DNA of 64,000 nt, from contig NZ_CP030126.1 in assembly GCF_003568845.1 (NCBI RefSeq), positions 2,959,501 through 3,023,500 on the forward strand, given 5' to 3'. The position numbers and the translations under genes were made by a program. The DNA comes from Indioceanicola profundi. GTDB taxonomy: Bacteria > Pseudomonadota > Alphaproteobacteria > Azospirillales > Azospirillaceae. Of the stretch, positions 8,196-44,263 are shown in pieces. Position 1 is the stretch's first letter. Every line of letters begins with the position of its first letter. The notes beneath the pieces are model-generated. The model was not told the origin of the DNA. It made no database searches and saw only the letters and a list, made by a program, of their open reading frames with translations.

Positions 8196-8226
8196 TGTCG
8201 GCCATGCTTTGCATGACCGACCTACG
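8196..8226 (+). repeat. REP-like hairpin, divergent copy
   Basis: A 31-base element in the convergent gap between the small gene and olsA. It matches the elements at 43182, 43267 (inverted) and 43717 in its outer parts (TGTCGGCCA and TGACCGACCTAC). The hairpin stem here is CATGC/GCATG, where the other copies have CACGC/GCGTG, so both sides of the stem changed together. Confidence 0.8.
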
Positions 8227-42205: not shown

Positions 42206-42745
42206 ATGGGACGGAACAGCAGGACGGCGGCAGACCCCAAGAAGGCTGTGCGGATGGCGCAGGTCGGGGTGGAGCTGGCCGAGACGTCCATGGTCTTTGC
42301 CGAAATGGCGACGGCCGCACAGCAGACGATCACCTACCGGTTGGTGCGCATGGCCGGGATCATGGCCGACCCGAAGACGATGCACGATCCCGAATTCCGC
42401 CGCATGGGCCAGGAAAAGCTGGTCGCCGCCTCCCAGGCCGTGTTCGCCCTGGGCGAGGGCTGGCGCGAGGTACTGGATGGGGTCTGGAGTTGGGCCGGCA
42501 TCCAGGCCACGGCGTGGGAGCAGTTGGCCATGACCGTGGCGACGGCCCGCGATCCAGGCGCATTGATCGAGGCGCAGAGCCGGTTCCTCGACCGTTCCCT
42601 CACCGCGGCGGAAGAGGCCAGCGCCCATATGGCGGTCGGTGTCAGCCGGTTGGCCGGCCTGGGCCTGGCCCCCATCCACAAGGCCACCCGCGCCAACGCC
42701 CGCCGGCTGAGCCGTGAAGCGCGCTTACCGGCGCTGCTGGGGTGA
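42206..42745 (+). CDS. phasin family protein
   Basis: 179 residues from ATG 42206, which has GGAG 8 bases upstream; the GTG at 42179 lies inside the operator palindrome. All-helical phasin_2-type protein (VGVELAETSMVFAEMATAAQQTITYRL; ARDPGALIEAQSRFLDR) that coats polyhydroxyalkanoate granules. There is no signal peptide. It has its own operator, so it is probably induced when PHA is made; no phaC, phaR or other pha genes are nearby. Confidence 0.88.
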   Translation: MGRNSRTAADPKKAVRMAQVGVELAETSMVFAEMATAAQQTITYRLVRMAGIMADPKTMHDPEFRRMGQEKLVAASQAVFALGEGWREVLDGVWSWAGIQATAWEQLAMTVATARDPGALIEAQSRFLDRSLTAAEEASAHMAVGVSRLAGLGLAPIHKATRANARRLSREARLPALLG

Positions 42746-42798
42746 CCGCGGGTTCTTGTGCCCTGCTGTCGGGGCCGGCGGCATTCTGGAAGGTGAAG

Positions 42799-43214
42799 GC
42801 GTCGGGGTCCGCGACATCTAGAAAGATGAAAAGGATGGGAAAGATGGAATTGATGGACCGGGCGCGCCGCAGGCGGTGATCAAGACCGGTCAGGGCTGAT
42901 CCGTAGCCGAATGGACCGACTTCTTCATCCTGTTCATCTTTCCAGATGTCACCGGCCTGGCCATTCGACCCTGTCCGCGCGGGCCGGTTGGTTATCAGGC
43001 AAGGATGAATAGGATGGATAGGATGGCGCGCTGGACAGGCGGAGCCAGTCCTGTATCACCAGCCCGCACCGGCGGATGAGGTGTTCTCCCTCATCCTATC
43101 CATCCCATTCATCCTTTCCCATATCCCTAATCAAGCCTCTCCACGGGGAGGACGGCGCCCAATGGCGCGGAAGAGCGAAGGCTGTCGGCCACGCTGCGCG
43201 TGACCGACCTACGG
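42799..43214. repeat. nested inverted-repeat cassette, copy A
   Basis: Begins GGCGTCGGGGTCCG. First hairpin: the arm starting GACATCTAGAAAGATG (42813) pairs with its complement ending CAGATGTC (42950), over about 31 bases. Second hairpin: arms 43001-43025 and 43092-43116 (AAGGATGAAT units, about 24 of 25 paired), enclosing a 66-base core at 43026-43091. It ends in a REP-like hairpin (43182-43212). No gene is seen. Confidence 0.9.
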
Positions 43215-43297
43215 CTCCGCGGTGTACGAGCCCGGGCGGCGGGGCCGCAACGGACCAATGTTTGGAGTAGGTCGGTCACGCGCAGCGTGGCCGACAG
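43182..43297. repeat. head-to-head pair of REP-like hairpins
   Basis: A 31-base arm at 43182-43212 is the exact inverted complement of 43267-43297, with 54 bases between. Each arm also contains a small hairpin with stem CACGC/GCGTG and a TGC loop. This forms a BIME-like unit between the two cassettes. Confidence 0.92.
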
Positions 43298-43312
43298 GAC
43301 TGTCCGCGCTTC

Positions 43313-43749
43313 GGCGTCGGGGTCCGAGACATCATGAATGATGAAAAGGATGAAGAGGATGAAAATGATGAACCGAGAGCGCCGCAGGCAGTGATGAAGA
43401 CCGGGCAGAAGCTGAGGCGACAGCCGAATGGCCCTGCACCATCATTTTCATCCTCTTCATCATTTTCATCTTTCTAGATGTCACCGGCCCGACCATTCGA
43501 TCCTGCCCGCGCCAGCTCCGGCAGACAATCGGTTATCAGGCAAGGATGAATAGGATGAAGGAGAGCACCTCATCCGCTGGTGCGGGCTGGTGATACAGGA
43601 CTGGCTCCGCCGGTCCAGCGCGCCATCCCATCCATCCTATTCATCCTTGCCAATACCCTAAATCAGGCCTCTCCACAGGAAGGACGGCGTCGAATGGCCC
43701 GGAACACAGGCGAAGGCTTTCGGCCACGCTGCGCGTGACCGACCTACGG
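43313..43749. repeat. nested inverted-repeat cassette, copy B
   Basis: The same order as copy A, starting GGCGTCGGGGTCCG. First hairpin: arms 43328-43370 and 43440-43482, about 43 bases with few mismatches. Second hairpin: arms 43542-43557 and 43624-43648, enclosing a 66-base core at 43558-43623 that is the reverse complement of copy A's core. It ends in a REP-like hairpin at 43717-43747, 27 bases from the uspA stop. Confidence 0.9.
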
Positions 43750-43774
43750 GCCTGTGGACCTGGACGGTGGGGCA

Positions 43775-44263
43775 TCAGGTGATGGCGTCGAGCTGGGCGT
43801 CGGTGAGCGTACCGGGGACGACCGTGACCGGGATGCGCAAGGTGCCGCTCATCTGCCCGACGATGTGGCTGATCAGGGGGCCGGGGCCGCCGCGGCCAGC
43901 GCCGGCGGCCAGCACCAGGATGGAGATCCCAGGCTCCTCCTCGATCAGCTTCAGCAGCTCGTCGCGCCGCGTTCCCTCGCGGATATAGAGGCAGGGCAGG
44001 AAGCCGGAGATATCCACAACCTCCTTAGCAAGGCGCTGGAGCAGATGCTCCGCCTCCTCCCGCGCCTCCTGCTTCATCAGGGCTTCCACGGCGCCCCACT
44101 GCTGAAGCTCCCCCATCTCCATCACATGCAGCAATGCCACCCGCCCGCCGGAATTGCGGGCGCGCAGGGCGGCGTAGTGCAGCGCGACGGTCATTTCCTC
44201 GCTCTCGTCCACAACGACCAGGAAAATGCGCTGATGAATTTCGGTGGCGATGGGTTGGGTCAT
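43775..44263 (-). CDS. universal stress protein (UspA family)
   Basis: 162 residues. Usp fold: IFLVVVDESEEMTVALHYAA at the start, then the nucleotide-binding end ISILVLAAGAGRGGPGPLISHIVG ... PVTVVPGT, though the glycine-rich G-2x-G-9x-G(S/T) loop is only approximately matched. It follows the TIGR02186 gene by 22 bases as the last gene of the TauE-TIGR02186-Usp group, which often travels together in alphaproteobacteria. Its exact role is not known. Confidence 0.85.
   Translation of the reverse strand: MTQPIATEIHQRIFLVVVDESEEMTVALHYAALRARNSGGRVALLHVMEMGELQQWGAVEALMKQEAREEAEHLLQRLAKEVVDISGFLPCLYIREGTRRDELLKLIEEEPGISILVLAAGAGRGGPGPLISHIVGQMSGTLRIPVTVVPGTLTDAQLDAIT

Follow-up and report, generated by a model that had tools for sequence, protein, structure and literature searches.

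Minute inversions occur at hairpins of chloroplast DNA: the segment between the two arms is reversed in place, with no site-specific enzyme. The locus described here, which lies in a stretch of 64,000 nucleotides of the Indioceanicola profundi genome (the window; contig NZ_CP030126.1, positions 2,959,501 to 3,023,500), resembles these cases in the way its segment is reversed. It also resembles the GTAG-type REP elements and their BIME/REPIN arrangements associated with RAYTs, the REP-associated tyrosine transposases (PMC2817692, PMC3116915, PMC3733652). Like these, it has a GTAG tag with an imperfect palindrome, tail-to-tail dimers with a spacer and a mosaic make-up, it forms a lineage-specific family that is extragenic and often placed between convergent genes, and a RAYT with GTAG palindromes is present in the same genome. 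Inversion of the spacer between inverted repeats has been described in yeast, where template switching both inverts the spacer and homogenises the arms (Abraham and Hazkani-Covo 2021, PMC8604942). Again, the reversal takes place in situ, the arms are kept and no site-specific enzyme is involved, but here 66 nt and the inner parts of the arms are reversed rather than the few bases of the yeast coding cases, and the flipped form is found on a dispersed repeat family and not at a single site. Invertons and invertible promoters (PMC5903667, PMC11892184) share the inverted repeats around a reversed intergenic segment; they differ from our locus, which has no recombinase nearby and no sigma-70-like promoter match, lies between convergent genes and has an orientation bound to the sub-family. 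Finally, MITEs are likewise short, non-coding, dispersed, hairpin-forming and intergenic, but many of the units studied here lack matching terminal inverted repeats and have a REP at one end and a hairpin-1 arm at the other.

Two collinear cassettes with inverted cores

The composite fills the gap between an ORF of 188 amino acids and a universal stress protein gene, and consists of two cassettes, units A and B (Table 1). Their flanks are collinear direct repeats with identities of mostly 74-88%: 83% for the block 42798-42893/43313-43408, 88% for 42922-42980/43454-43512, 84% for 43092-43172/43624-43704, and 98% for 43175-43214/43710-43749. The cores of the second hairpin are different: core A and reverse-complemented core B agree at 62 of 66 bases, as compared to 23 of 66 if the two are aligned directly. 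The inverted match includes the arms (42998-43105 versus 43544-43651, 108 nt, 94% complementary, blastn E 4e-44), and the inner arm parts of hairpin 2 are inverted along with the core. In unit A, the arms of this hairpin are 28 nt long, 93% complementary and separated by 66 nt; the left arm in unit B is about 9 nt shorter. Compared with shuffled sequences, much stronger folding as DNA was seen for hairpin 1 of unit B, for hairpin 2 of either unit and for the REP pair (z -6.0 to -9.6). The inverted core is a real feature that exceeds chance, and the earlier note on this DNA had been right in its description of an inversion at about 62 of 66 positions, of collinear flanks that are not inverted themselves (the direct-repeat blocks of 83-98% identity), and of an interior devoid of coding sequence or recombinase, as there is no ORF of at least 100 amino acids in 42745-43754.

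Table 1. Features of the A+B composite and its surroundings (window coordinates).
Feature	Coordinates	Strand	Remarks
Flanking ORF, 188 aa	42179..42745	+	without a hit in Pfam; points towards the element
Unit A (hairpin-2 core in orientation A)	42798..43214	+	first half of the A+B composite
Unit A, hairpin 1	42806..42957	+	arms ~32 nt, 84% complementary; compared with other copies, the right arm has a single 15-nt deletion
Unit A, hairpin 2	42998..43119	+	left arm 42998-43025, core 43026-43091, right arm 43092-43119; ssDNA fold z -6.0
Core A, orientation A	43026..43091	+	sequence closest to B-type cores
Tail-to-tail GTAG-type REP palindrome pair	43182..43297	.	joins A to B; 31-nt arms, 100% complementary, 54-nt spacer
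Unit B (hairpin-2 core in orientation B)	43313..43749	+	right end exactly at the REP tag ...GACCGACCTACG
Unit B, hairpin 1	43320..43490	+	51-nt arms, 86% complementary
Unit B, hairpin 2	43539..43651	+	block 43544-43651 corresponds to 42998-43105 in reverse complement (108 nt, 94%)
Core B	43558..43623	+	reverse complement of core A at 62/66
Right-end REP of the composite	43717..43747	-	GTAG-tagged palindrome
Flanking universal stress protein gene	43775..44263	-	PF00582; converges on the element

A BIME-like repeat family of one chromosome

The two cassettes in the window together make up a single copy of a BIME-like mosaic repeat that is non-coding and dispersed on one chromosome. Searching the organism's own genome (5.37 Mb, 4 contigs) revealed about 20 units at 15 loci, all of them on the largest contig, and 20 units were extracted and aligned. 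In each unit, hairpin 1 (about 165 nt) is followed by a linker, hairpin 2, a tail and the GTAG-tagged REP palindrome. Hairpin 2 has a 66-nt core between 28-nt arms that are built of 9-bp repeats, the number of which differs among the copies. A+B composites are present at the window locus and four further loci, and ten others have one unit only, of type A or B. The right ends of 11 copies are identical up to ...CTAC plus one G, i. e. ...GACCGACCTACG, and only 18-35% identical beyond, which marks the REP tag as the end of the element. On the left, the boundary is variable: it is formed either by a second, inverted REP, as in most B units, or by the outer arm of hairpin 1.

L024 (C1:3187902-3188138) carries hairpin-1 arms that are almost perfect over about 50 nt around an unrelated loop of about 140 nt, and other loops are also found in hairpin 1 of L009A and L025. 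The arms of hairpin 1 seem to be kept while the loops get replaced. At L013, L014, L015, L017 and L020, a second class of REP pair (GTAGGTCGCAAGGAGCGCAGCGGATTGCGAC ... GTCGCAATCCGGCCTCCTTGCGACCTAC) is located immediately upstream of the left REP of the cassette, giving rise to larger mosaics.

The cassette palindrome reads GTAG-GTCGGTCACGCGNAGCGTGGCCGAC, and tag plus palindrome have the layout of RAYT-associated REP elements (PMC2817692, PMC3733652). With up to three mismatches, 36 REPs in the genome match GTAGGTCGGYCACGCGNAGCGTGRCCGAC, versus none for the backward control pattern. A solitary, slightly degenerate copy of the cassette palindrome lies outside the cassettes on the minus strand of the window, at 8196-8226. 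The genome encodes one Y1 transposase, which scores 195 bits (cut-off 80) with the RAYT model NF047646. The gene (C1:2600234-2600551; L059, L060) is located between inverted GTAG-tagged palindromes of a different class, GTAGGTCGGCGCCGAGCG...GGCCCGAC, which have only the tag and the outer bases in common with the cassette REP and differ in the stem. Since this RAYT is flanked by a REP sequence other than the element's own, its action on the cassettes remains putative. The cassettes do share with GTAG-type REPs and BIMEs a tag and palindrome in many copies, the extragenic location and a RAYT in the genome, and REPs that alternate in orientation with spacers are represented by the tail-to-tail pair 43182-43297, which recurs in all five composites. 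Besides the different REP class around the RAYT, the family departs from these systems in the low copy number of the cassette REP class (36 found), in the roughly 330 nt of conserved double-hairpin sequence that each unit adds beside the REP, and in its confinement to one arc of one chromosome. The view of the earlier note that no named element is like this one was only partly right: the ends are GTAG-type REPs, a RAYT is present in the genome, and spacer inversion has been described.

At eight of the 15 loci the element sits between converging ORFs, mostly with gaps of 10-120 bp, and the remainder are in tandem or unclear arrangements, as judged from ORF-based gene calls; in several loci the flanking genes are backed by Pfam. 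REPs have been described to prefer the space between convergent genes (PMC3733652). On the largest contig, all full units fall within the arc 2.38-3.44-0.08 Mb, about one fifth of the genome, and the other three contigs are free of copies except for one lone REP on C2. The sampled GC skew switches its sign near 0 and near 1.4 Mb, so that this arc is probably close to the origin and for the most part within a single replichore.

The arms are mostly complementary within each copy, and few pairs are changed on both sides. RNA covariation is weak, with 2 and 4 such pairs, and we therefore make no claim of a conserved RNA. Matches to Rfam were restricted to sub-threshold hairpins, with nothing above the gathering score; intrinsic terminators were not detected by consensus, and a scan of 42700-43800 for sigma-70-like promoters, the one promoter type covered, gave no match.

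The family seems restricted to this lineage. A covariance model of hairpin 1 retrieved further, more diverged copies on the largest contig; the remaining contigs and 81 further genomes from the same taxonomic family yielded no convincing match. The earlier note had suggested a search of related genomes for the cassette; no repeat unit was found in any of these 81 genomes: the only other match in the family, to a part of the core in G071 (E 3e-4), is attributed to chance, as the sequence there is apparently coding. When GTDB was scanned with the hairpin-1 loop as a pattern, 10 single hits appeared in unrelated genera and were also taken as chance, and plasmids did not match the repeat. We found no published account of this REP-tagged mosaic repeat.

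Age and probable mechanism of the inversion

We favour, with a probability of roughly 0.7, the idea that this non-coding, BIME-like, REP-tagged repeat carries an old sub-family inversion that came about without an invertase, and that core A of the window was later converted. The units split evenly into 10 of orientation A and 10 of orientation B, and in all five composites unit A comes first and unit B second, linked by a common REP-spacer-REP junction. The identical arrangement and junction suggest that the composite was copied as a block and that the inversion is older than the amplification of the composites; a recent flip of the window copy was accordingly rejected. The proposal of the earlier note that the segment flipped in one copy holds insofar as one core is inverted relative to the other, but a flip of the window copy itself is not supported, as the five composites match.

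The flip appears to be an old trait of the sub-family, fixed before the A+B composite was copied, and this idea is supported by phylogeny. On the tree of the joined 5' and 3' flanks, which like all our flank trees is short and has few well-supported branches, orientation requires 2 changes as compared to a mean of about 7 after shuffling; none of 500 shuffles was as low, and a clade of single origin is not rejected (AU p = 0.30). The separate, even shorter trees require 5 changes for the tail (3') and 4 for the 5' flank, and the units L018A and L020A are A-oriented but have B-like flanks or cores, so that two or three inversions are possible. It is tempting to take these numbers as a sign of recurrent, unregulated flipping by replication template switching that is frequent on the evolutionary scale. 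The breakpoints inside the arms would fit, as would the variable number of 9-bp repeats, which suggests a hairpin prone to replication errors. We consider this scenario unlikely: on the combined flank tree 2 changes suffice and a single origin is not rejected, and hairpin 1, whose arms are longer and whose loop is similar, has one loop orientation in all copies in which the loop is recognisable, which argues that hairpin flips are rare.

The same observations bear on the comparison with an invertible element that the earlier note had drawn. If the 28-nt arms were the target of a recombinase in trans that flips the hairpin-2 segment in the population, one would expect what is indeed present: good inverted arms around a non-coding 66-nt core, both orientations in equal numbers in the genome, and hints in L018A and L020A at more than one flip. 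Yet orientation tracks the sub-family and is constant in all five composites, the arms consist of degenerate 9-bp repeats and do not form a fixed recombinase site, and, with convergent gene ends and no sigma-70-like promoter match, a flip would have no obvious readout. No recombinase is linked to the segment, as judged from the interior, which contains no ORF of 100 amino acids or more, and from the two flanking ORFs. We regard an actively inverting element as highly improbable. We give even less credence to the possibility that hairpin 2 is inverting today at about 15 intergenic sites per chromosome, driven by single-strand processing by the RAYT at the adjoining REPs, although such RAYT-driven flipping, if true, would be a micro-inversion system that is assisted by an enzyme and coupled to REP elements. 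An active switch, though conceivable, finds no support in the data.

The arms themselves retain traces of the event. At arm positions 14, 20 and 23, the A/G states went with the core when it was inverted, whereas position 3 stayed in place, suggesting that the flipped block comprises the core and the inner part of both arms. The inversion is bounded by the inverted arms, with the outer arm bases left where they were, and this is the expected product of template switching or of recombination inside the arms. According to the favoured explanation, the inversion would have arisen once or a few times, through a polymerase template switch or a recombination event between the two inverted arms of hairpin 2, whose outer part would contain the breakpoints; a dedicated invertase would not have been involved, and the flipped form may have spread by copying of the element. 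The enzyme-free route that the earlier note had put forward, replication slippage or hairpin recombination, is plausible. Spacer inversion has been described in yeast (PMC8604942), where template switching is documented for spacers much shorter than 66 nt.

It is doubtful, but conceivable, that no inversion in place occurred at all, and that B units resulted from recombination at the arms of two oppositely oriented copies. Copies are present on both strands at many loci, the nearly complementary arms would make the product identical, and the flank pieces look mosaic, with differing 5' and 3' trees. The collinear flanks, however, require an exchange at both arms, which in practice amounts to gene conversion of the hairpin, and the present data do not separate such an exchange from template switching.

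If the hairpins act at all, they may resemble other REP/BIME elements at the 3' ends of genes, as RNA 3'-end structures or as DNA hairpins, and the REP ends would be what a RAYT-type transposase recognises.

Likeness of the window cores and significance of the family

In the window, cores A and B are far more alike than in the other four composites: their identity is 94%, versus 65-80% after re-orientation elsewhere. Flank identity is 78-79% in the window and similar in the other four, where cores and flanks resemble each other in their level of identity. The excess of core over flank identity is significant in the window (Fisher p 0.002) but not in the other composites. Moreover, the highest identity of the window's core A to any other A core is 83%, as against 91-94% to several B cores, whereas the flanks of its unit are of the A type (5' flank 88% to L010A; 3' flank 87% to L009A, L011A and L012A). 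Core A was likely overwritten later by core B, through inverted gene conversion or a template switch that left its orientation unchanged, and this overwriting would explain the 94% likeness; the inverted arms may have served as homology when the core of unit A was replaced by that of unit B. On a core tree of 66 columns, a position of the unit A core among the other A cores is still acceptable in the AU test (p 0.28).

Taken together, the element is a lineage-specific variant of REP/BIME repeats that contains an old hairpin inversion, with inverted gene conversion likely at the window locus. The case calls for caution, as an inverted core between adjacent repeats is not necessarily an invertible switch. 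Our data also put on record a REP-tagged mosaic repeat that is particular to its lineage, a relative of Azospirillum. They provide a natural data set as well: some 20 paralogues from a single genome form a tree on which a small hairpin inversion can be positioned. Cases of this kind are useful for estimating the rarity of hairpin flips and the frequency with which one inverted copy overwrites another.
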